IMG/VR virus record: IMGVR_UViG_3300028858_000221
Location: 1 to 22,420 of that record
DNA: 22,420 bases
DNA from: a virus
Direction: 5' to 3' (one strand)
This document shows, in pieces, positions 3,255 through 21,047 of this stretch (position 1 is its first letter; each line of letters starts with the position of its first letter). The notes beneath the pieces are model-generated. The model ran no database searches and was not told the DNA's origin. It saw only the letters and a list, made by a program, of their open reading frames with translations. The position numbers were made by a program, and so were the translations under genes.

Positions 3255-4389
3255 TTCCGGGCTCCACATTATGGCTCGATAGAAGACTCAAGCTGAAGAA
3301 GTTCAATACCTTGGCTATAGGCAGCACAAAGGAGACATTGTTCCCACCAGCAAAAACTACGCCTACTGCGGCGGTGCCGTCGGCAGTAACCACCAGAGAG
3401 CCACTATCGCCGCCCTCAGAAAAGGTATTGCCGTTGGCTCCCTCTACAATCCATACGCCGGTGAAGTACACCATAGACTGGAATCGCGATGATTTGTAGG
3501 GGATTGACAGCGGTATCACCGTCTCTCCCAGTACGGTACCGAGCCTTAGCCCTGTAGTTCGCCCCACTTTTTTTACGACCATCCCTGCTCTCATTGGCGC
3601 GATTACTGATGGCGTATCGTATGCGCCGTTCCCTTGCATCGAGCTCACCTTATCCGGCTCGGTGATCTCGAAGATCGCGCCGTCAATCTCTTGCAATGCG
3701 ATCTGCTGTGGATCACCACTGTTAAGCTGGGCTAGGCTCAGATGCTTACCAATTGCCAGGGGCGGTGGACTTGCAGGCGATGCATCGATCGGGGCGGGAC
3801 TGAGGATATGCATCCCTGCGGGCGTATGGTTTGAATCGCCAGTAACGTGGTTATTGGAGAAACCTACAATCCGGCCATCTGCCATCGTCGCAAGAAAGCC
3901 GAGCGTCCCAGCGCCTGGAGTATGACTGCAGATCACTGATGATCCGCATGAAATTCTGTTGTTGTGTGAAAACCAGATCGGGGCACCCGATACCGCAGAG
4001 CTTGGGGCCGCTGGTGGGTTAGGCTCGATGAGCGTTTTCCCTGTGTAGTGAATCGTAATGCCGCGTGTGTTTTTCGGGAGTCTTTTTTCTGCGGCTGAAG
4101 AAATAGCGCCTTTGCACATTACGGAGATGGAGCTTGCGGCACTGTCCGCAGCTACGCATACGACCTTGATCCTACGCAATGTATTAGCGATCCTCTCCGC
4201 CGTTTCATCATCAACCCCATAAATCTCACTTAGGGGGAGCTTCATATCTGACTCAACAGGTTCGCTGGCTACCAACGCTCCATGGGTGCGAGCCCACTCA
4301 TGAATGGCTTTTCCAATCTGCGTCGGAGTGTATTTTTGTTCTGCTTCCGCGGCTTCACGCTGAAGACCCACATCGAGCTGCTGGTCCAT
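3211..4389 (-). CDS. Trypsin-like serine protease (chymotrypsin fold)
   Basis: The product is 392 aa. ATG at 4389 is preferred over the adjacent GTG at 4392 because AAGGAGG then lies 4 bases upstream. The catalytic triad can be read with GTG-start numbering (subtract 1 for the ATG start): His182 in FSNNHV, Asp237 in EIDGAIFEI and Ser330 in EGGDSGSLV. KKVGRTTGLRLGTV (274-287) is a typical segment of bacterial trypsin-like domains, roughly residues 150-365. The first about 130 residues form a separate region with a helical start and a beta-rich part before a proline-rich linker. There is no signal peptide, so it probably acts in the cytoplasm, which fits a regulatory or defence protease better than a secreted one. 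It is transcribed with the overlapping 67-aa gene. The trypsin-fold assignment is firm; the substrate is unknown. Confidence 0.88.
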   Translation of the reverse strand: MDQQLDVGLQREAAEAEQKYTPTQIGKAIHEWARTHGALVASEPVESDMKLPLSEIYGVDDETAERIANTLRRIKVVCVAADSAASSISVMCKGAISSAAEKRLPKNTRGITIHYTGKTLIEPNPPAAPSSAVSGAPIWFSHNNRISCGSSVICSHTPGAGTLGFLATMADGRIVGFSNNHVTGDSNHTPAGMHILSPAPIDASPASPPPLAIGKHLSLAQLNSGDPQQIALQEIDGAIFEITEPDKVSSMQGNGAYDTPSVIAPMRAGMVVKKVGRTTGLRLGTVLGETVIPLSIPYKSSRFQSMVYFTGVWIVEGANGNTFSEGGDSGSLVVTADGTAAVGVVFAGGNNVSFVLPIAKVLNFFSLSLLSSHNVEPGNGQPPISASIAPAP

Positions 4390-7552: not shown

Positions 7553-8031
7553 TTGTACTGCCCCAGAATCTTGTTGGCCATCAGCTCAAGGTCAGAAATT
7601 TCTACGCTGTTAAGTACTAAATTCACTACGAACTCATCGGTCATTGTGTAGTGAAGTCTGATTTTGTTGTTTTTGCAGATGAGCTCAAAAGAGATCGATG
7701 AATCATTTGTGCTGTCGAGTCTGCCCAGCTCTCCGCTTTTAACGACAGAACCTGGACACTTGCCTATTGCGATAATTTCTTGATTTGCGGACCTTGCTTT
7801 TTTCACTACATCGAGCAGTTTTTCCGCGTCAGCTCTCTTGAGCGAGCGCATTAGGACGTCGTCAGCCTCGTCGCTTTTATACATCCCCCACGTGGTTTCA
7901 GATCCGGTCGTGCTGACCGTTATCCTCGGCAGTGCCGGGTTCAGGCCTTTAAGAGTAATCTCGCGTGTAAGCGCTGATGCGTATTGGCAAACCAGCAGGG
8001 CTGAAATTAATCCAAGCGTCATTTTTCTCAT
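7549..8031 (-). CDS. Secreted protein of unknown function, 160 aa
   Basis: The frame is open upstream to 8103, but that would run through a long hairpin. The ATG at 8031 has GGA about 7 bases upstream and gives a clear signal peptide, MRKMTLGLISALLVCQYASA, with likely cleavage after ASA. The mature part is beta-rich and polar, with repeated hydrophobic strands (REITLKGLNPALPRITVSTT, SISFELICKNNKIRLHYTM). Two cysteines in the mature part (in GKCPGS and ELICKN) could form a disulfide in the periplasm. No family is recognised. It follows the lipoprotein gene in the same direction, with a large hairpin between them, so the two may form an envelope pair. Confidence 0.65.
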   Translation of the reverse strand: MRKMTLGLISALLVCQYASALTREITLKGLNPALPRITVSTTGSETTWGMYKSDEADDVLMRSLKRADAEKLLDVVKKARSANQEIIAIGKCPGSVVKSGELGRLDSTNDSSISFELICKNNKIRLHYTMTDEFVVNLVLNSVEISDLELMANKILGQYK

Positions 8032-11179: not shown

Positions 11180-11538
11180 ACCGTCACCTCGGCCTCATCG
11201 CTGTTAATCCAATGTTCCTGTGATTTCAAAAACACCGGCAACAGCGGCAACAATGGCAACAGCCCCGTAAACCGTGGCCTCCAGACGTTGGTGTTGCTGC
11301 CAAACTGTTGCCAGCGATTTCTTATCGGCAACAGTGATAACCAAATGAAGGGAAAGTACGGGTCTCTTATGTTGAAAATGAGGTGTGCGTTGCCAGTTGT
11401 TGCCACTTTTTTTATAGGGTGGCAACGGCTGTAAGCCACGCCACACAAGGCCGTTGCCGGTGTTGCCACTGTTGCCAGTGATTCTAGGTTCCTGTGAACT
11501 TGGGCAATCTGGATTGCTGGTCTTTGAGTGACGTTCAT
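11176..11538 (-). CDS. ORF running through the GGCAAC repeat cluster
   Basis: The frame is 120 codons. Its ATG overlaps the helicase stop (ATGA) and its own stop overlaps the next gene's start (ATGA), so it fits the operon perfectly. However, the protein is largely an echo of the DNA repeats (ESLATVATPATA, GLLPLLPLLPVF) and has unnatural composition. It may be translated mainly to keep ribosomes moving through the repeats, or it may be a real but unusual protein. Another frame (11204-11554, GTG start) is also open here and looks no more natural. Confidence is moderate because of the coupling, not the sequence. Confidence 0.45.
   Translation of the reverse strand: MNVTQRPAIQIAQVHRNLESLATVATPATALCGVAYSRCHPIKKVATTGNAHLIFNIRDPYFPFIWLSLLPIRNRWQQFGSNTNVWRPRFTGLLPLLPLLPVFLKSQEHWINSDEAEVTV
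11237..11476. repeat. GGCAAC/GTTGCC iteron-like cluster; possible origin
   Basis: Eleven exact hexamers lie within 240 bp: GGCAAC at 11237, 11246, 11255, 11327 and 11421, and GTTGCC at 11307, 11389, 11399, 11453, 11462 and 11471. The outer arrays have a regular 9-bp period and opposite orientation. An AT-rich stretch lies inside (11407-11415). The cluster follows the helicase gene directly. In phage P4 the alpha protein binds short iterons at its origin, so this is the best candidate here for the island's replication origin. Confidence 0.6.
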
Positions 11539-13328
11539 ACGCCACCGCCTTCACGATCCATGATGTCTGGGTCGATCACGTAGAGACGCGCCTGGCCACC
11601 ACCAGGGAGTCGGTAGTTTTTGGTTTTGCGCTCGTTGTCGCGGCGCGCGAGGACGTTAGCGCCCTCCAAGGCTTTGATGATGCGAGACAGGCCATAGCCG
11701 TGAGCCGCCTCGATGAGCGCCGGCTTGTTGAATAGGTACAGACGGTTGGTGCCCACCAGCTCCCAGTAACCGGCCCGGTTGAACACCTTAGTGTCAGGCG
11801 TTTGATCGTCGACATCTGAAAAGCGGCTGCTGCCGTGGCGGTCGATAAAGTCCAGGATGCCGGCCAGGATCTGCCGATCCTCTGCATTGCCACTACCAAC
11901 CCGGCTGAGCCATTCGCCATACAGCAAACGGCAGTCGGCTAGGGCGGTACCCGGCACCCATGGCAGCAGGCCGTAGGCGATGGCCATCTCGCCGGCAAGC
12001 GCGATCACGGCGAACCGATCAGCCACCCGGCCGGCCTGAGCGTTGTCTTCCACAAAGCTGGCGCGTACCCCGGCGAAGTCTTCCAGCAGGCCGGCCCGGT
12101 CGTCGCTTTCGAGCAGCTTCTCGACAAAGGCCGGTCCGAGGTGTCCATGGTGGGAGCCGACCGACACGGTGAGCTGCCGGTGGAAGTCCGCTCCCTCAAG
12201 TCCGTGTAACTCGTCGAAGGCCCGGTGTGTGCGGGTGCCGGCGTTCACGTCGACCATGCGCAACTCGGCGCCAGCGTGGGCGGCATTGCCGGATATGGCC
12301 GCGTGTTCAGAGAGGGAGCGCTCGCCGCTGGAGAGTGTCAGCAGGCGCCAGCTCAATTTGGCGCGGCCTTCGCGCTCACGGGTCATGGTGCCCTTGCCCT
12401 GGCCGTTGGCGAGGGAGTACGCCATTTCCTGTACGCGCTTGGGGTCGGCGCGCTTGATCTCATCCAAGGGCAGGATGGTGTCATTGCGGCTCGACGCCTC
12501 GATCTCCAGACCGCCCTTGGTCATGTCCCAACTGGCGGCGAATATGCCCGGGTCGCCCCATACCGACGAGCCGATCAGTTGCGCCAGTGACTTGCCGCTT
12601 GAGCTGTCGCCCACCAGATGAACACCACCGCCCAGCACGCCCACCAAACTCAGCAACGGGCCTGCCAGCGAGCAGCCGATTGCGAGCGTCAGTACCGGGT
12701 TGCCCGCGCACTTTGCGGCCACCTCCGATTGCCACAGCGCCAGCTCGCCGCGCCGGCTGAAAAGTATCTGGGCCTTGTTGCTGGCCTGGTACCGCACATT
12801 GGTGCTGCCGATGGTTCGCCCAGGCAGCACGAAAGCGCCCGACTCATGCCAGCCTGGCCGGCTGGTGGTGGCAAACACTTCTGCAGGATGCTGGTCGAGC
12901 AGGTACTCCATGAACGTGCCGCGTTTCTTGAGGGCGATAATGACGCCCATCCCGAACAAGGCGCGCCGGGCGTCCTCGCCGCTGCCGCCGAACACCTCCA
13001 TGGCGATGATCCATTCCTTGATGCCGCCCTCGGTGACCAGGCGCAGCAACCGGCCTTCGCTGCCATCGTCGCTGTTGGTGGTGCGGGCGACGACTGTGAC
13101 GGGGCTGGAGATCCACTCATCGGTGATAGGCCGGCCGCCGGTATCGCCCTCGGCGTCGTCCAGGTCAGCGGCGGCGCGCTTGAAGCTATGCCAGTAAACG
13201 CCCGGGCGCAGCTTGCGGCCCTTCTCATTGATCACCCAATGCTCATACACCGCCCAGCAGGGACGATCTGGCGCAATGGTCGCGGCGTCCGGCCGAAGGT
13301 TGATCACGTTGGTGTCAGGCTTGGACAT
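11535..13328 (-). CDS. DUF927-type replicative helicase/ATPase
   Basis: The start is ATG 13328 (597 aa), which overlaps the primase end by 14 bp; the frame is open further upstream but inside the primase gene. The Walker A motif is GDSSSGKS at about 240-247 of this start, and Walker B is TILPLDEI at about 284-291. The region before it (CWAVYEHWVINEKGRKLRPGVY through GWHESGAFVLPG) is typical of the DUF927 family of mobile-element helicases, relatives of the helicase half of P4 alpha. The C-terminal about 120 residues have a winged-helix look (YGLSRIIKALEGANVLARRD). With the adjacent Toprim primase it should form a two-gene version of the P4 alpha replication protein. Its stop overlaps the start of the repeat-containing ORF. 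Confidence 0.9.
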   Translation of the reverse strand: MSKPDTNVINLRPDAATIAPDRPCWAVYEHWVINEKGRKLRPGVYWHSFKRAAADLDDAEGDTGGRPITDEWISSPVTVVARTTNSDDGSEGRLLRLVTEGGIKEWIIAMEVFGGSGEDARRALFGMGVIIALKKRGTFMEYLLDQHPAEVFATTSRPGWHESGAFVLPGRTIGSTNVRYQASNKAQILFSRRGELALWQSEVAAKCAGNPVLTLAIGCSLAGPLLSLVGVLGGGVHLVGDSSSGKSLAQLIGSSVWGDPGIFAASWDMTKGGLEIEASSRNDTILPLDEIKRADPKRVQEMAYSLANGQGKGTMTREREGRAKLSWRLLTLSSGERSLSEHAAISGNAAHAGAELRMVDVNAGTRTHRAFDELHGLEGADFHRQLTVSVGSHHGHLGPAFVEKLLESDDRAGLLEDFAGVRASFVEDNAQAGRVADRFAVIALAGEMAIAYGLLPWVPGTALADCRLLYGEWLSRVGSGNAEDRQILAGILDFIDRHGSSRFSDVDDQTPDTKVFNRAGYWELVGTNRLYLFNKPALIEAAHGYGLSRIIKALEGANVLARRDNERKTKNYRLPGGGQARLYVIDPDIMDREGGGV

Positions 13329-14196
13329 GGGCGAGTTTCCAGTTGGCGAGGTCGTTGAAGTCGGTGAGGTCATCGGGGGCGCCTTCCGGCCACTCGGGGA
13401 AAGCCACCTGGCCGCCCACGGCCGCAGCCGCCGCGTTTGCCACTGCGCGCCCCGGGTTGCCATTGGTGAGCCGGTCGTCGTCACCGGCGATGACGATTGG
13501 CTGGCCCGGGTAGCGAGCGCGAAGGGCCATCGCCGCCGGGATCAAGTTGCCCGCGTTCATGGCCGCGGCAACGACGTAGCCGCCGTGTTGGTGGAGGCTG
13601 GCGGCCGTCGCCCATCCTTCGCAGATGCAAAGCACAGAACCTGGCTCAATGATGCCCAGCGGCGAATAGGTGCCCTTGATCCGGCCGCCGAACAGGAAGC
13701 GCTTGTCGCCGTCCGGCCCGATCCTTTGCAGGTTGACCAAGCGCCCATCCAGGTACAGAGGGATCAGCAGGTCAGCGCCGCGCTGGCGTAGGCCGTAGGA
13801 GCGAACAGCCTTGGCGACCAAATACGGGTGGTCGGGTGAGGCGCGGCGCGCATTGCGCCACCAGTAATTGGCCTTCTCAGCGGCCTGCTGCTGGCGCCGG
13901 TGTTGCTCGGCTTCGCGCTGGCGCCGGGCCTGGTCAACCCGCTCGCGGATCTGTGCCGCTTCGCGGGCGTCCACCGGTTCGCGGCTACACCAGGTGCTGG
14001 CGCCCCCGGCCTTCCAACTGCCGAACGCACCGGACGCGATACCGTCAGCGAACAACGTGTACCAGCCATTTGAGGAGCCGGCCTTGTCGCCTGGGACGTG
14101 AAACCGGTGAATGGTGCCGTCGGCCAAGGGGAGCCATTCGAGAGGGCCATAGACGGCCTGGAGTGCATCACGGAATAGGATCGTTGCGTCAGTCAT
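13315..14196 (-). CDS. Toprim-domain DNA primase
   Basis: The product is 293 aa; its ATG overlaps the upstream stop (ATGA). The first about 70 residues hold aromatic-rich beta segments (GTIHRFHVPGDKAG, GWYTLFADGIASGAFGSW) like the N-terminal region of P4-alpha-type primases. A basic helical linker rich in R and Q follows (85-115). The Toprim domain spans about 185-275, with the catalytic Glu193 in LCICEGWATAAS and the acidic cluster Asp239-241 in IVIAGDDDR. There is no cysteine zinc cluster of the DnaG type, so it belongs to the short plasmid/phage class. It lies immediately upstream of the DUF927 helicase with a 14-bp overlap, so the two are made together. Confidence 0.9.
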   Translation of the reverse strand: MTDATILFRDALQAVYGPLEWLPLADGTIHRFHVPGDKAGSSNGWYTLFADGIASGAFGSWKAGGASTWCSREPVDAREAAQIRERVDQARRQREAEQHRRQQQAAEKANYWWRNARRASPDHPYLVAKAVRSYGLRQRGADLLIPLYLDGRLVNLQRIGPDGDKRFLFGGRIKGTYSPLGIIEPGSVLCICEGWATAASLHQHGGYVVAAAMNAGNLIPAAMALRARYPGQPIVIAGDDDRLTNGNPGRAVANAAAAAVGGQVAFPEWPEGAPDDLTDFNDLANWKLAHVQA

Positions 14197-15771: not shown

Positions 15772-15977
15772 AGGGCACCCCCATCCAATTTAAAGCGCCG
15801 ATAAAGATCGTAGCTCGCATCATTCAGGCCGGGCCGGTACTTGGTCCTCAACAAATCGCGCACCCGATCTTCAAGCGTGGCAGTTATGCCCGCGATGTCG
15901 TCAGCCGAGGAATAGCGCATCATGACTCGCAGAAGCTCAGCGCAATAGGCCTTCTGGAACTCAAGAGGGTGTCTCAT
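15768..15977 (-). CDS. Unrecognised small protein, 69 aa
   Basis: Both ends overlap neighbouring genes as ATGA, which supports translation in series. The product is a small, charged, probably all-helical protein (FQKAYCAELLRVMMRYSSAD, TATLEDRVRDLLRTKY) ending in a short basic stretch. No family or motif is recognised. Its place between other small genes ahead of the primase suggests an early, accessory role, but nothing in the sequence shows it. Confidence 0.6.
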   Translation of the reverse strand: MRHPLEFQKAYCAELLRVMMRYSSADDIAGITATLEDRVRDLLRTKYRPGLNDASYDLYRRFKLDGGAL

Positions 15978-16237
15978 TGCTCACCCCCAGCGCCCAGCGC
16001 AACACATCCGGCCAGCGCAGCGGCGATTTGCTCGCGGTTGCAGTCGGCGGTGTTGGCGCCGTCAGCGGCCAGGCTCCACGCGACGTCTACCAGGTTGCGG
16101 ACGTGCTGACTCGTGCCCTTGTCTGCCAATGCGGCATAGAGAACGGCCTCAACCTTGCGCAGTGCGATCTGGGCGCTTTCGAGATCCTCAAGCGTGTCGT
16201 TGGCGATTTCTTGGATGGTGCGGGCGAGAGTATTCAT
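15974..16237 (-). CDS. Unrecognised small helical protein, 87 aa
   Basis: The ATG at 16237 overlaps the upstream stop (ATGA), and the stop overlaps the next start. The N-terminal half is an amphipathic helix pair (IQEIANDTLEDLESAQIALR, KVEAVLYAALADKG); the C-terminus is alanine-rich with two cysteines (NTADCN and AGCVALG). No known motif is seen. The N-terminal pattern resembles that of the 169-aa protein further along the operon, which may mean an old duplication. Confidence 0.6.
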   Translation of the reverse strand: MNTLARTIQEIANDTLEDLESAQIALRKVEAVLYAALADKGTSQHVRNLVDVAWSLAADGANTADCNREQIAAALAGCVALGAGGEQ

Positions 16238-16395
16238 TGCACACCGCCGGCAGACTCCAGGGTACGAGCGATGGCCATGTGGGAGTTGTAACGGGCGAGG
16301 CGAACGGAGAGTGATGAGTTTGCGCGGAGGGCGCTCAGGGCCATGCGGCGGTGAGCAAAGGCGCGGATTGCGGACGGAATAAGGGCGTGATTCAT
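16234..16395 (-). CDS. 53-aa protein controlled by a CI-like leader RNA
   Basis: I start at ATG 16395, with TAGGAG 8 bases upstream. The frame is open further upstream to 16716, but that part is a structured RNA with its own promoter, so a 160-aa protein is rejected. The product is small and basic (FAHRRMALSALRANSSLSVR, RLARYNSHMAIARTLE) and probably helical. Its Shine-Dalgarno is part of a segment that can pair with the 78-nt CI-like RNA just upstream, so translation is likely shut off by that RNA. The stop overlaps the next start. It is the first gene after the leader, so blocking it would affect the whole coupled replication operon. The protein's own function is unknown. Confidence 0.65.
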   Translation of the reverse strand: MNHALIPSAIRAFAHRRMALSALRANSSLSVRLARYNSHMAIARTLESAGGVQ

Positions 16396-16449
16396 CGGTA
16401 CGGCTCCTAACGTTGAGGAACCGCCACTACCTGCTGCAAAACAGAATTG

Positions 16450-16527
16450 GGTGGCGGCTGTACGCAGGTTTGCAGACCGGGACGTTAGGAACCCGGCGCG
16501 CTCGAGAGCGCCCCACGCACAGCCACC
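16450..16527 (-). ncRNA. P4 CI-like immunity RNA, 78 nt (island copy)
   Basis: A closing stem GGTGGCTGTGCG (3' block at 16516-16527) with CGTACAGCCGCCACC (16450-16464) encloses a strong inner hairpin, GCGCT CTCG AGCGC, and the single-stranded segment CCTAACG...CTGCAAAC. That segment is complementary to both flanking segments of the leader. The P4 CI RNA is a 69-nt stem-loop that pairs the same way and causes early transcription termination. The second copy at 20866-20943 has the same length and fold, with base changes that keep pairing. The RNA ends are predicted, not measured. Confidence 0.75.
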
Positions 16528-16549
16528 ATAAAGCGAAATAGCGGCCATG

Positions 16550-16581
16550 AAAAAAGCGCCAGCTTTCGAAACGGTGGCGCT
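16550..16581 (-). terminator. Intrinsic terminator inside the leader
   Basis: The stem AGCGCCA/TGGCGCT (16575-16581 with 16555-16561) is followed on the minus strand by a run of T (16550-16555). It lies between segment 1 and the CI-like RNA, a fitting place for RNA-controlled termination. The host-flank copy of the leader lacks it. Confidence 0.8.
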
Positions 16582-16641
16582 TATGCGCCTAACGATAGTC
16601 GGGCTGCAAAACCCGGTCGCTGAATTTGCAGCGACGGGCAA

Positions 16642-16670
16642 ACCATACCGACGAGCACGATTGCTTGCAA
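16642..16670 (-). promoter_or_regulatory. Promoter of the CI-like leader
   Basis: On the minus strand, TTGCAA (16665-16670), a 17-bp spacer and TATGGT (16642-16647) form a sigma-70-type promoter, with the start expected near 16635. A promoter of the same spacing sits at the same distance from the equivalent hairpin at the second locus. Confidence 0.6.
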
Positions 16671-16712
16671 CAAAAGTTATCGACCGTTTATCGCTGATCA
16701 TGAGCATAGCTG

Positions 16713-17186
16713 TCATGGGCGGAAGTCCTCAGAATCGATTGGCAGCTTCAGTTGCTCCCTCAAATGAGCAACGTGCGCGTACACGCCTGGCTTGTCATAG
16801 CGCCAGTGGGCTAGGCGGCGGCCACTGCTGCTGGCTTCCTTCTTGCGGGCCTCCAACGACCGGCAGGCGTGCCCATATCGTGCTTCGCGGAACGCCATGA
16901 TGAGGCTCGCTTTCAGTTCCACAATGCGGTCGGTATTGCGGGACAACGACAGCAGGAAGAACGCTTGATCTTCGTTCAGCAAGCCGAATCGCTCCGGCCT
17001 ACCACCGGCAGTTCCGGCCAAGGGTTTCTCCGTTTGAAACGGAACAACCCCGAACTCTTCAAACTTCGCCAGGTAGCGCTCGATCAGCGCCATTGGGTTT
17101 TTGTGCTTGGTTCCCAGTTGCTTCGCGAGCTGGCGGCTATCCACGCGAGGCTCGCCCCCGATTTGAGTCACCATGATTGTGTTCAT
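16713..17186 (-). CDS. rha: Rha-family phage regulator
   Basis: The product is 157 aa; its ATG overlaps the upstream stop (ATGA). Residues 8-40 (GGEPRVDSRQLAKQLGTKHK followed by NPMALIERY) are the typical winged-helix start of the phage Rha (pRha) family, and the family part continues to about residue 110 (FGLLNEDQAFFLLSLSRNT, then LKASLIMAFREAR). Rha proteins are found in temperate phages and satellites; in phi80 and P22 the gene interferes with growth in hosts lacking IHF. The C-terminal about 50 residues are basic and variable. The end of the gene lies next to the promoter of the CI-like leader, so regulation of the downstream operon can act right here. Confidence 0.85.
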   Translation of the reverse strand: MNTIMVTQIGGEPRVDSRQLAKQLGTKHKNPMALIERYLAKFEEFGVVPFQTEKPLAGTAGGRPERFGLLNEDQAFFLLSLSRNTDRIVELKASLIMAFREARYGHACRSLEARKKEASSSGRRLAHWRYDKPGVYAHVAHLREQLKLPIDSEDFRP

Positions 17187-17482
17187 GCTGTCACCCCCGC
17201 CGGCGGGTTGGTGCTGAGGTAGTAGAGCGCCATGCCCTGATGAGTACGCCCTTGATCGTCGGTTAGGGTGAGGCGGTGGGTCAGGATCTTGTGGCCCAGG
17301 CTGCGCAGTTCATTGATGCGGGCGCCAGGACGAACGATGTTCAGCTCGCGGATGGCGGTGAAGGTATCAATCGGACCAATTTGTAAGCGCTCCCAAAGGC
17401 GAGCGCGTTGCGCAGTTCCACTGGTATTCTCGGCGTGAGTATTTTTGTGGCTGGCCTGTTGGTCGGCCTTTTTTTTGTTCAT
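17183..17482 (-). CDS. HTH_39-type helix-turn-helix protein
   Basis: The product is 99 aa; its ATG overlaps the AlpA stop (TAATG). The first 25 residues are polar and basic. The rest fits the winged HTH_39 pattern: AQRARLWERLQIGPIDTFTA, then IRELNIVRPGARINELRSLG, then HKILTHRLTLTDDQGR and a final beta wing MALYYLST. Such proteins are common between alpA and rha in P4-like islands and probably bind DNA. It may set operon expression together with AlpA; the target is unknown. Confidence 0.8.
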   Translation of the reverse strand: MNKKKADQQASHKNTHAENTSGTAQRARLWERLQIGPIDTFTAIRELNIVRPGARINELRSLGHKILTHRLTLTDDQGRTHQGMALYYLSTNPPAGVTA

Positions 17483-17742
17483 TAGGCGGCCACCTCGCGT
17501 AGAGCGATGCGCTGGCGCACCCAGGCGTGGACCTCAGCCAGCACAAAGCCAACTGGCGAACCACGCGACTTACTGTTGCTCAGCGGCACAGGACGGGGGA
17601 AGGTCGGGTCGTCTTTGAGGCGTTTGTAGACAGTGGCGCGGGCGAGGCCTGTGATGACTTCTACTTCAGGGAAACGAATGATGGTATTCGCAGGATCGAA
17701 CCCTGTAGCGGAGGCGACTTCAAGTTGACGTAGGTTGCTCAT
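17482..17742 (-). CDS. alpA: AlpA-family transcriptional regulator
   Basis: The product is 86 aa from ATG 17742, with GGGAAA about 8 bases upstream. Residues 22-75 have the AlpA (MerR-like excisionase) layout: IIRFPEVEVITGLARATVYK, RLKDDPTFPRPVPL, then SPVGFVLAEVHAWVRQRIAL. AlpA proteins activate prophage integrase or excision genes and often head such operons. Here it is the first gene of the long leftward operon. An inverted repeat directly upstream (17745-17775) is a likely binding site for it or for another regulator. Confidence 0.9.
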   Translation of the reverse strand: MSNLRQLEVASATGFDPANTIIRFPEVEVITGLARATVYKRLKDDPTFPRPVPLSNSKSRGSPVGFVLAEVHAWVRQRIALREVAA

Positions 17743-18913: not shown

Positions 18914-20155
18914 TCAGGCTCGCTTGCCAAAGTCGCCCTGGATAACGATGCCACCGGCAAGACCGTCGAGGTAGTTCGCATACCATTGCATCATCACCGT
19001 GCGCTGTGGGAGGTACTGGGCCTTGTTGTAGACGCCAGCAACGCCAGGTTTTTTGTGCGATAGCTGGGCCTCGACGTGGTTCTCGTCGAACCCGTTCTCG
19101 TTGAGCACTGTCGACGCGATATGCCGGAAGCCGTGACCGGTTTGCCGGCCTTCATATCCCATACGGCGCAGCGCCATCAGAAACACTGTGTCACTGCGTG
19201 GTTTGGTGTGGTCGCTGCGGCCAGGGAACAGAAGGGGATAGCTGCCGGTGTACTGGCGTAGTTCCTCCAGCGCCTCGATCGCCTGAGACGAAAGCGGTAC
19301 CAAGTGCTCAAGTCCCTTTTTGCGGCCTTTGCGCTCTACTGGGATCGTCCAGAGCTTTTTGGTGAAATCGAACTCCGACCACCGGGCCTCGCGCAGCTCG
19401 CTAGGGCGCACCGCGAACAGGCTCAGCAGGCGCAGGCCGAGGCGCACATCGTGGGCGTGCGGATAGGCAGCGATGGCGCGGATCAGGCCGGGAAGTTCAT
19501 CGGGTGAGACGTGGGCGTAGTTCTCGGCTTTGCCAGACTGGAGATATTTTTGCAGCCCCTCGAGCGGGTTATGGGTCGCCCGGCCGGTTACCCTGGCCAA
19601 GTCGTAGGCGTCTCGGCAGTACGAGCGCACCCGGCTCATTTGCTCAAGGATTCCCTGTTGTTCCATGCCGCGCAGAAACTCCATCCACTCAAGCGGGGTG
19701 ATGTTGGCATAGGGACGCTTTCCGAACACCGGGAAGACGTGCCGCTCCAGGGCGCCGATGATTCGCTTGGCGGTGCCCGCATCCCAGTTGTTAAGGCGTG
19801 AGGCGTACCACTCTCTCGCCAGTGGCTCGAATGTCTCGCCGGCGATATCCCTCTCTGCTTTTTTGCGGGCTTGCTTGGTAACGATCGGGTTTTTGCCGTC
19901 GGCGGCGTCGGTGCGCAATTCGGCAGCTTTCTGCCTGGCGACTGATCCGCTCACCTCGGGGTAACCGCCAAGCCCAAGCCATGACCATTTGCCGTCAGGC
20001 TTCTTGTAGCGAAGCTGCCAGGACTTTTGGCCATCAGGCTTCACGCGGAAATAAAGGCCGCTCCCGTCCAGCTCGCGATACTCGTTGGCATCAGGCTCCA
20101 GGCCGGCCAATGCGGTATCGGAAAGGGGGCGGCGTTTTATCTCAGAGCGCTTCAT
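18914..20155 (-). CDS. int: P4-type tyrosine recombinase (integrase)
   Basis: The product is 413 aa. The N-terminal part (about 10-100) is the P4-integrase arm-binding domain (LSDTALAGLEPDANEYRELD, SWQLRYKKPDGKWSWLGLGG). The catalytic residues can be seen: Arg250 in FAVRPSELREARW, His341-x-x-Arg344 in HGFRHIAST, His367 in LSHKKPG and the nucleophile Tyr376 in GVYNKAQY. The end (MMQWYANYLDGL) is standard for the family. The gene starts 170 bp from the 3' end of tRNA-Met, the usual att site for this group. Repeats between it and the tRNA probably bind its arm domain. It looks intact and active. Confidence 0.95.
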   Translation of the reverse strand: MKRSEIKRRPLSDTALAGLEPDANEYRELDGSGLYFRVKPDGQKSWQLRYKKPDGKWSWLGLGGYPEVSGSVARQKAAELRTDAADGKNPIVTKQARKKAERDIAGETFEPLAREWYASRLNNWDAGTAKRIIGALERHVFPVFGKRPYANITPLEWMEFLRGMEQQGILEQMSRVRSYCRDAYDLARVTGRATHNPLEGLQKYLQSGKAENYAHVSPDELPGLIRAIAAYPHAHDVRLGLRLLSLFAVRPSELREARWSEFDFTKKLWTIPVERKGRKKGLEHLVPLSSQAIEALEELRQYTGSYPLLFPGRSDHTKPRSDTVFLMALRRMGYEGRQTGHGFRHIASTVLNENGFDENHVEAQLSHKKPGVAGVYNKAQYLPQRTVMMQWYANYLDGLAGGIVIQGDFGKRA

Positions 20156-20325: not shown

Positions 20326-20402
20326 TGGTGGCTACACAGGGACTTGAACCCCGGACCCCAGCATTATGAATGCTATGCTCTAACCAACTGAGCTATGTAG
20401 CC
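20326..20402 (-). tRNA. tRNA-Met (CAT), elongator
   Basis: The full cloverleaf is present: acceptor stem GGCTACA/TGTAGCC, D-arm with GGTTAGAGC, anticodon stem TAGCA/TGCTG with loop TTCATAA (anticodon CAT), T-arm CGGGG TTCAAGT CCCTG, and an encoded CCA. Its 5' half is nearly the same as E. coli elongator tRNA-Met. The 3' end is the probable attachment site of the island; the gene has stayed complete. Confidence 0.97.
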
Positions 20403-20574: not shown

Positions 20575-20814
20575 TCAGGACGTGCGGGGCATGCAGTCGA
20601 TGGAGCGGTCGACCACGGTTTTGGCCATTTCCAGCAGGTGCCACACGGCGTGGATTTTGGCGCGGTCGTGGGGTGGCAGGTGGTCGCCGCAGTCCAGCAC
20701 GGTGGCCGAGGCGCTGTGGATCAGGTGGGCGATGTAGAGCTGGGCGTCTTCGAAGCTGAGGTGTTCGTTGACGACGAGGCAGTCGATGGGCGGATCGGGG
20801 AGTGCTTTGGTCAT
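20575..20814 (-). CDS. DUF6124-like small protein
   Basis: I start at ATG 20814 (79 aa), with TAGGAG 7 bases upstream; the longer open frame up to 20964 is structured RNA, not protein. The sequence LVVNEHLSFEDAQLYIAHLI, then ATVLDCGDHLPPHDRAKIHA, then VWHLLEMAKTVVDRSI fits the small helical proteins annotated as DUF6124 in Pseudomonas, to my recollection. The function is unknown. It lies in the host flank beyond the tRNA, and its leader is a second copy of the CI-like RNA element found in the island. Its ribosome site can be covered by that RNA, so its translation is probably under RNA control. Confidence 0.75.
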   Translation of the reverse strand: MTKALPDPPIDCLVVNEHLSFEDAQLYIAHLIHSASATVLDCGDHLPPHDRAKIHAVWHLLEMAKTVVDRSIDCMPRTS

Positions 20815-21011
20815 GGTGTAGCTCCTATTGAACGAGAGAGCGACCACCCACGCTGCTAAACGAGGGGTGGCAGCTGTACGCGGGTTAGCAGACCGGTCAA
20901 TAGGAAAACCAGCGCGCCCGAAGGCGCCCCACGCACAGCCACCATAAGCGGAGACATGAACCATGCGTCTATTGAAACGGGCTGCTAAACCCGATCACTG
21001 ATTCCAGTGAC
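20815..21011 (-). promoter_or_regulatory. CI-type leader of the DUF6124 gene
   Basis: On the minus strand, segment 1 (GTTTAGCAGC at 20981-20990, TCAATAG at 20969-20975), segment 2 (CCTATTGA at 20897-20904, CTGCTAAC at 20884-20891) and segment 3 (GTTTAGCAGC at 20852-20861, TCAATAGG at 20824-20831) mirror the island leader. Segment 3 again covers the Shine-Dalgarno. Compared with the island copy both pairing blocks have changed sequence but stay complementary. The hairpin TCACTG/CAGTGA near the transcript start is kept in shape, too. The terminator of the island copy is missing. Confidence 0.75.
20866..20943 (-). ncRNA. P4 CI-like RNA, 78 nt (host-flank copy)
   Basis: It has the same length and fold as the island copy: closing stem GGTGGCTGTGCG with CGTACAGCTGCCACC, and inner hairpin GCGCC TTCG GGCGC. 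The inner hairpin differs from the island's GCGCT CTCG AGCGC by a paired C-G to T-A change. The segment CCTATTGA...CTGCTAAC is free to pair with either flank. The block GTGCGTGGGGCGC is identical in the two copies. Confidence 0.75.
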
Positions 21012-21018
21012 GGATCGA

Positions 21019-21047
21019 AGACTAGCCAGCAGTTTCCACAGGCACAA
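21019..21047 (-). promoter_or_regulatory. Likely promoter of the DUF6124 leader
   Basis: TTGTGC (21042-21047), a 17-bp spacer and TAGTCT (21019-21024) lie at the same distance from the first hairpin as the better promoter of the island copy. The -10 match is poor alone; the shared position raises its value. Confidence 0.45.

Follow-up and report, generated by a model that had tools for sequence, protein, structure and literature searches.

A probable C4-type antisense RNA switch ahead of the replication operon in a phage satellite of the phiAH14b type, and related cassettes across Pseudomonas chromosomes

What kind of RNA precedes the replication operon of a Pseudomonas phage satellite, and how might it act on the genes that follow? 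We addressed this question in a 22,420-nt stretch of DNA (the window), which is IMG/VR record IMGVR_UViG_3300028858_000221 and includes host flank. A sequence-only reading had proposed, within positions 16396-16640, a 78-nt stem-loop RNA with segments complementary to both of its flanks. All elements of that description are present on the minus strand, and the range takes in the whole module. Our analysis indicates that the feature very probably serves a phiAH14b-like satellite as a C4-type antisense RNA switch. Using the P1 nomenclature for the segments (a', b', a1, b1, a2, b2), the order on the minus strand is a1, b1, terminator, C4, a2, b2 and the start codon of a 53-aa gene:

16596-16648, minus: match to c4-a1b1 (RF03163), 58.7 bits, above gathering
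16604..16610, minus: a1 block, TTTGCAG, within the RF03163 match
16588..16594, minus: b1 block, CGTTAGG, complementary to b'
16549-16635, minus: isrK (RF01394) match spanning a1/b1 and the terminator, 51.8 bits (gathering score 50)
16550..16582, minus: intrinsic terminator between b1 and C4, an 8-bp stem followed by a T-run
16450..16527, minus: C4 antisense RNA, 78 nt (RF01695; Rfam span 16447-16533)
16482..16490, minus: b' segment, TCCTAACGT, the loop of the C4 hairpin; complements b1 over 7 nt and b2 over 9 nt
16469..16475, minus: a' segment, CTGCAAA, forming the 7-nt junction strand of C4; complements a1 and a2
16434..16440, minus: a2 block, TTTGCAG, complementary to a'
16405..16413, minus: b2 block, ACGTTAGGA, overlapping the Shine-Dalgarno of the 53-aa gene
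16404-16410, minus: Shine-Dalgarno of the 53-aa gene, TTAGGAG, with the ATG at 16395

By its Rfam score of 83.6 bits (gathering 45, E = 2e-15), the window RNA is a member of the known C4 antisense RNA family (RF01695) of phages P1 and P7, and it scores 96 bits with a covariance model built in this analysis. The fold comprises 27 pairs, 99.8% paired across 37 sequences, and a GG at 16527-16526 corresponds to the expected 5' end of C4 RNA. The size proposed earlier, 78 nt (16450-16527), is correct, the C4 of P1 being annotated as 77 nt; likewise borne out were the placement of the downstream block over the Shine-Dalgarno (b2 over TTAGGAG) and that of the upstream block before a terminator, which lies downstream of a1/b1. 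The pairing proposed for CTGCAAAC reflects real complementarity, but over 7 nt (CTGCAAA) and not 8. The b' loop contains the anti-Shine-Dalgarno TCCT. Taken singly, the 7-nt matches are weak (p 0.04-0.10); flank matches summing as high as those observed were obtained in 0.0002 of 5000 trials with dinucleotide-shuffled flanks, which rules out chance complementarity of C4 to its flanks. The leader also folds 5 sd better than shuffles, and exceeds the isrK gathering score only just. The stretch scanned for promoters contained no consensus sigma-70 sequence. A 160-aa open frame crosses the C4 leader into the 53-aa gene (window 16234-16716, minus), as also observed at locus L203 (3771-4253).

The gene succession around the leader runs integrase, AlpA, winged-helix protein, Rha, C4 leader, small genes, Toprim primase, DUF927 helicase and tail-assembly-I (the last 61% identical to that of phiAH14b):

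20326-20402: tRNA-Met
18914..20155, minus: integrase, adjoining tRNA-Met, 39% identical to the phiAH14b integrase
17482..17742, minus: AlpA
16713..17186, minus: Rha-like regulator, lying upstream of the C4 leader and sharing 78% identity with phiAH14b p05
16234..16395, minus: 53-aa gene, first of the controlled operon, its end overlapping the next start by 4 nt
15974..16237, minus: 87-aa gene (phrog_36154)
13315..14196, minus: Toprim primase, 95% identical to phiAH14b p15
11535..13484, minus: DUF927 primase-helicase, 90% identical to phiAH14b

Judged by these genes, the host element of the window C4 is a phiAH14b-type phage satellite. phiAH14b (KU708005), a 16.8-kb satellite found packaged in phiAH14a capsids (PMC4936722), is of the same element type and has the same gene order. 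It possesses its own C4 at 3957-4043 (89 bits), over which its annotation lays a hypothetical gene, p06; this gene is probably the same annotation artefact as the 160-aa frame, hiding a C4 RNA. The word "antisense" is absent from the phiAH14b paper (PMC4936722). A C4 shared with the helper phage was also considered and rejected, as phiAH14a carries no C4. Within the window, the record of which is truncated, we found no capsid genes, and no attachment-site repeat; the tRNA end occurs just once (20330-20350), so that the record probably stops short of the satellite's far end. The C4 precedes the 53-aa/87-aa pair that heads the primase-helicase operon, which is the place of the CI RNA in P4; the expectation of an antisense leader with three segments that match one another, placed before the first gene of a replication operon in a Pseudomonas satellite, as in P4, was thus correct. 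The 53-aa protein forms a conserved family in 36 aligned elements, with no match in Pfam or NCBIfam.

Conservation of the segments and their covariation, proposed as the check on homologous islands, were both found. A C4 was identified at 73 of 80 loci encoding the DUF927 helicase, derived from Pseudomonas, Halomonadaceae, one Brachymonas MAG and one Cellvibrionaceae MAG; two of the seven helicase loci without one are cut by a contig end. Five helicase islands (L025, L042, L049, L077 and L078) have flanks of sufficient length and no C4 was found in them, and their leader control may differ from the C4 type. Among 21 islands with different codes, the code words change together at all three places: pairs between C4 and the downstream blocks are formed in 98.5% of cases, with a covariation of 0.671 compared with 0.177 when shuffled and at most 0.10 when slid, and pairs with the upstream blocks in 98.0%, with a covariation of 0.613 compared with 0.159 when shuffled and at most 0.12 when slid. 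Code words were taken by covariance-model alignment and longest perfect match, a procedure that undercounts G-U pairs, and such pairs rescue some seemingly unmatched downstream loop targets. Matches of at least 7 nt occur with own flanks in 76-100% of islands, versus 5-22% for the flanks of islands coded otherwise. The fold itself is supported by 19 pairs with changes on both sides, with the reservation that a structure model had been used to find the sequences. Fifty-six island leaders of one class carry 34 codes, and among the leaders compared the window satellite C4 gave a double-block match only with the downstream target of one island (L037).

The likeness to C4 of P1 and P7 extends beyond the fold and size to the a'/b' segments, the order of the a1b1 and a2b2 blocks, the position of b2 near a start codon, nearly identical spacings, and a small first gene with a 4-nt overlap to the next. 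The P1 record annotates a1, b1, c4 (77 nt), a2, b2, icd and ant in that order; a2 follows C4 by 4 nt, b2 by 33 nt and the icd start by 51 nt, icd and ant overlap by 4 nt, and the matching segments are a' CTGTCAA and b' TCACTAAC. Against our model made from Pseudomonas sequences, the P1 C4 scores 56 bits. Two differences stand out: P1 targets icd and the antirepressor whereas the predicted satellite target is the 53-aa/87-aa pair with its replication operon, and the window satellite has an intrinsic terminator between b1 and C4. No antirepressor gene lies directly downstream of the window C4, where the 53-aa and 87-aa genes are found instead; a downstream antirepressor is the setting of P1 and P7 and no part of the C4 family definition. 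The P1 arrangement, with C4 directly before an annotated antirepressor gene, was observed in the P. aeruginosa phages PAShipCat1 and vB_Pae_CF74b (L209 and L210).

A further parallel is the IsrK/STnc1160/orf45/anrP system of the Salmonella prophage Gifsy-1. The a1/b1 part of the window leader, with its terminator, fits the isrK model, and Gifsy-1 likewise has a small ORF overlapping the next gene, although its downstream gene is an antirepressor (PMC4825925). In Gifsy-1 a stable RNA of ~80 nt is processed from a read-through transcript, while IsrK, the short RNA ending at the terminator, acts in trans to switch the operon on; the text of that study makes no mention of C4 RNA (PMC4825925).

The promoter, processing, silencing, immunity and decoy role that we infer for the satellite C4 are as follows. 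Transcription from an upstream promoter would yield a leader with a1/b1, the terminator, C4 and a2/b2, followed by the replication operon. Since the terminator lies between a1/b1 and C4, production of C4 would require read-through or a promoter of its own. The read-through transcript would be cleaved (in P1, RNase P does this at the GG with which the hairpin starts) to release the 78-nt C4 RNA, which would pair with a2 and with b2 over the Shine-Dalgarno. Best supported among the predicted effects is that this pairing would block translation of the 53-aa gene; since that gene overlaps the 87-aa gene by 4 nt, and by polarity, the block would extend to the primase-helicase operon. A resident copy could in this way silence an incoming satellite with the same code. 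It is reasonable to suppose that the satellite C4 works like P4 immunity in this respect; superinfection immunity is a plausible prediction, and the immunity groups of satellites can be predicted from their codes. Conversely, short terminated transcripts carrying a1/b1 could soak up C4, in the manner of IsrK of Gifsy-1, and induce the operon; by this analogy the satellite switch may consist of the ratio of short decoy to C4.

Two other accounts of the leader were weighed. The first, which we regard as unlikely, is a purely cis-acting attenuator that works through alternative hairpins and releases no trans-acting RNA. Consistent with it, a1, b1, a2 and b2 share one transcript with C4, and the leader folds strongly; against it, the C4 RNA of P1 and the C4-like RNAs of Acinetobacter are processed, stable RNAs (PMC5320573), and conservation extends to the C4 fold and to the GG with which it begins.

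The second account, slightly more doubtful, makes the RNA a member or variant of the P4 CI system, in which seqB acts on seqA and seqC through premature transcription termination; the sequence-only reading had proposed this kind of P4 logic with an extra pairing block. P4 CI and the window C4 are both antisense RNAs of satellites, with targets on both sides, placed before a replication operon, and a terminator lies upstream of C4. P4 CI has a single pairing segment, whereas the window C4 has two, which pair on each side, one of them over the Shine-Dalgarno. Also in favour are P4-type integrase, AlpA and primase relatives (PMC4936722), and IsrK was compared to P4 seqA by the authors of the IsrK study, where P4 CI is cited as working by transcription termination via seqA and seqC (PMC4825925). 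These likenesses are outweighed by the RF01695 score, by spacings like those of P1, and by the two pairing blocks, which had been taken as a departure from P4 and are the known a'/b' layout of the P1/P7 c4. The coverage of the Shine-Dalgarno by b2 points furthermore to translational control. The score and the two-block layout led us to reject a P4 CI variant in favour of a C4-type antisense switch.

A second C4 module lies in the window beyond tRNA-Met from the satellite (20575-21025), ahead of a DUF6124-like gene of the host, and is one of a genus-wide set of C4 cassettes:

20982-20989, minus: a1 of the second module
20969-20975, minus: b1 of the second module
20863..20949, minus: second C4 RNA, outside the satellite, RF01695 82.8 bits
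20853-20860, minus: a2 of the second module
20823-20831, minus: b2 of the second module, over a Shine-Dalgarno
20575..20814, minus: 79-aa DUF6124-like gene downstream of the second C4, PF19619 E 1.8e-5

Its code (b' TCCTATTGA, a' CTGCTAA) differs from that of the satellite C4, and it matches its own flanks over 7/9/7/7 nt. The PF19619 match of the 79-aa gene, at 25 bits, is just below the cut-off of 27.

Across the genus, C4 was present in 55 of 60 sampled Pseudomonas genomes, with a median of 14 and a maximum of 54 copies and at least 20 copies in 25 genomes; it was detected in 6 of 143 genomes sampled from the same class, with 1-3 copies in five of those. These copy numbers derive from Rfam scores, and the genomes sampled are few. 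The first genes in the main set of 80 cassettes encode DUF6124 (58), DUF3077 (6) and Bro-N (3), and across the three genomes examined a C4 lies just upstream, on the same strand, of 81 of the 92 DUF6124 genes. Among cassette neighbours with a Pfam match, sampled in one genome, we identified mostly ordinary host genes, e.g. catalase, TerC, Ppx/GppA and transporters, so that the cassette copies seem not to be carried on prophages. The idea that DUF6124 is a phage or plasmid gene was rejected: one typical query found it in a single record among 50,697 from phages, where it lay at the edge, and in 0 of 72,556 plasmids. It is encoded at 57 IMG/VR loci, nearly all with a C4 upstream. Its predicted structure is helical (mean pLDDT 76), and the model gave no significant match against PDB. 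Of 80 island-type leaders, 79 have a terminator-like site separating b1 from C4, compared with only 19 of 65 DUF6124-type leaders. In the open-access text searched, no paper on the Pseudomonas C4 set was found, and DUF3077 received one passing mention.

Several cassettes depart from the common pattern. Some chromosomal C4 cassettes (L127, L191, L155) apparently precede a Bro-N type gene and not DUF6124, and a link of Bro-N cassettes to antirepressors is possible. On one IMG/VR contig (L212), a C4-DUF6124 cassette lies in a defence-like neighbourhood of putAbiC, HEPN, FRG and nonspecific nuclease genes. In P. psychrophila (L044), C4 modules at 7918-8005 (plus) and 16799-16886 (minus) share a code in opposite orientation before different genes. 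The Group 1 C4-like sRNAs of Acinetobacter baumannii (PMC5320573) are similarly multi-copy, chromosomal and varied in their loops; they differ in being without assigned targets, whereas in Pseudomonas most copies match their own flanks and most precede DUF6124 genes.

Within a genome the loop codes are all distinct (51/51, 23/23 and 10/10 copies examined), and for 42/51, 20/23 and 9/10 copies no other flank matches as well as the copy's own. The loop code differs in every within-genome pair of paralogues with at least 85% protein identity. Near-identical DUF6124 paralogues or orthologues with differing C4 codes were observed at L185, L194, L188 and L149 and between L102 and L173, the last two having almost the same coding sequence and different code words at all three places; that near-identical genes carry different codes indicates a faster turnover of the code than of the gene. 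That the chromosomal copies serve the host as a library of immunities to satellites and phages with C4, as their number and diverse codes might suggest, is the least probable reading considered here and was rejected for phiAH14b-type satellites, since cassette C4s fit both downstream island blocks in 0.19% of pairs versus 0.18% expected, with no excess of double matches, and most copies have their own flanking targets. We lean, with some reserve, towards a different history, in which the Pseudomonas host took over the C4 phage switch and multiplied it into as many as dozens of separate RNA locks per genome. Each cassette would bear a private code that fits the two flanks beside it and would keep one small gene silent, mostly a DUF6124 gene; codes would change faster than the genes they guard, as if selected against cross-talk.

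Taken together, these results assign a C4-type RNA switch to the replication operon in a satellite family that is known but little studied, and in which sequence alone predicts which satellites should exclude one another. The C4-DUF6124 cassettes amount to a naturally occurring set of numerous RNA switches, apparently orthogonal, within one cell, and provide a first handle on DUF6124, a widespread gene family of unknown function.
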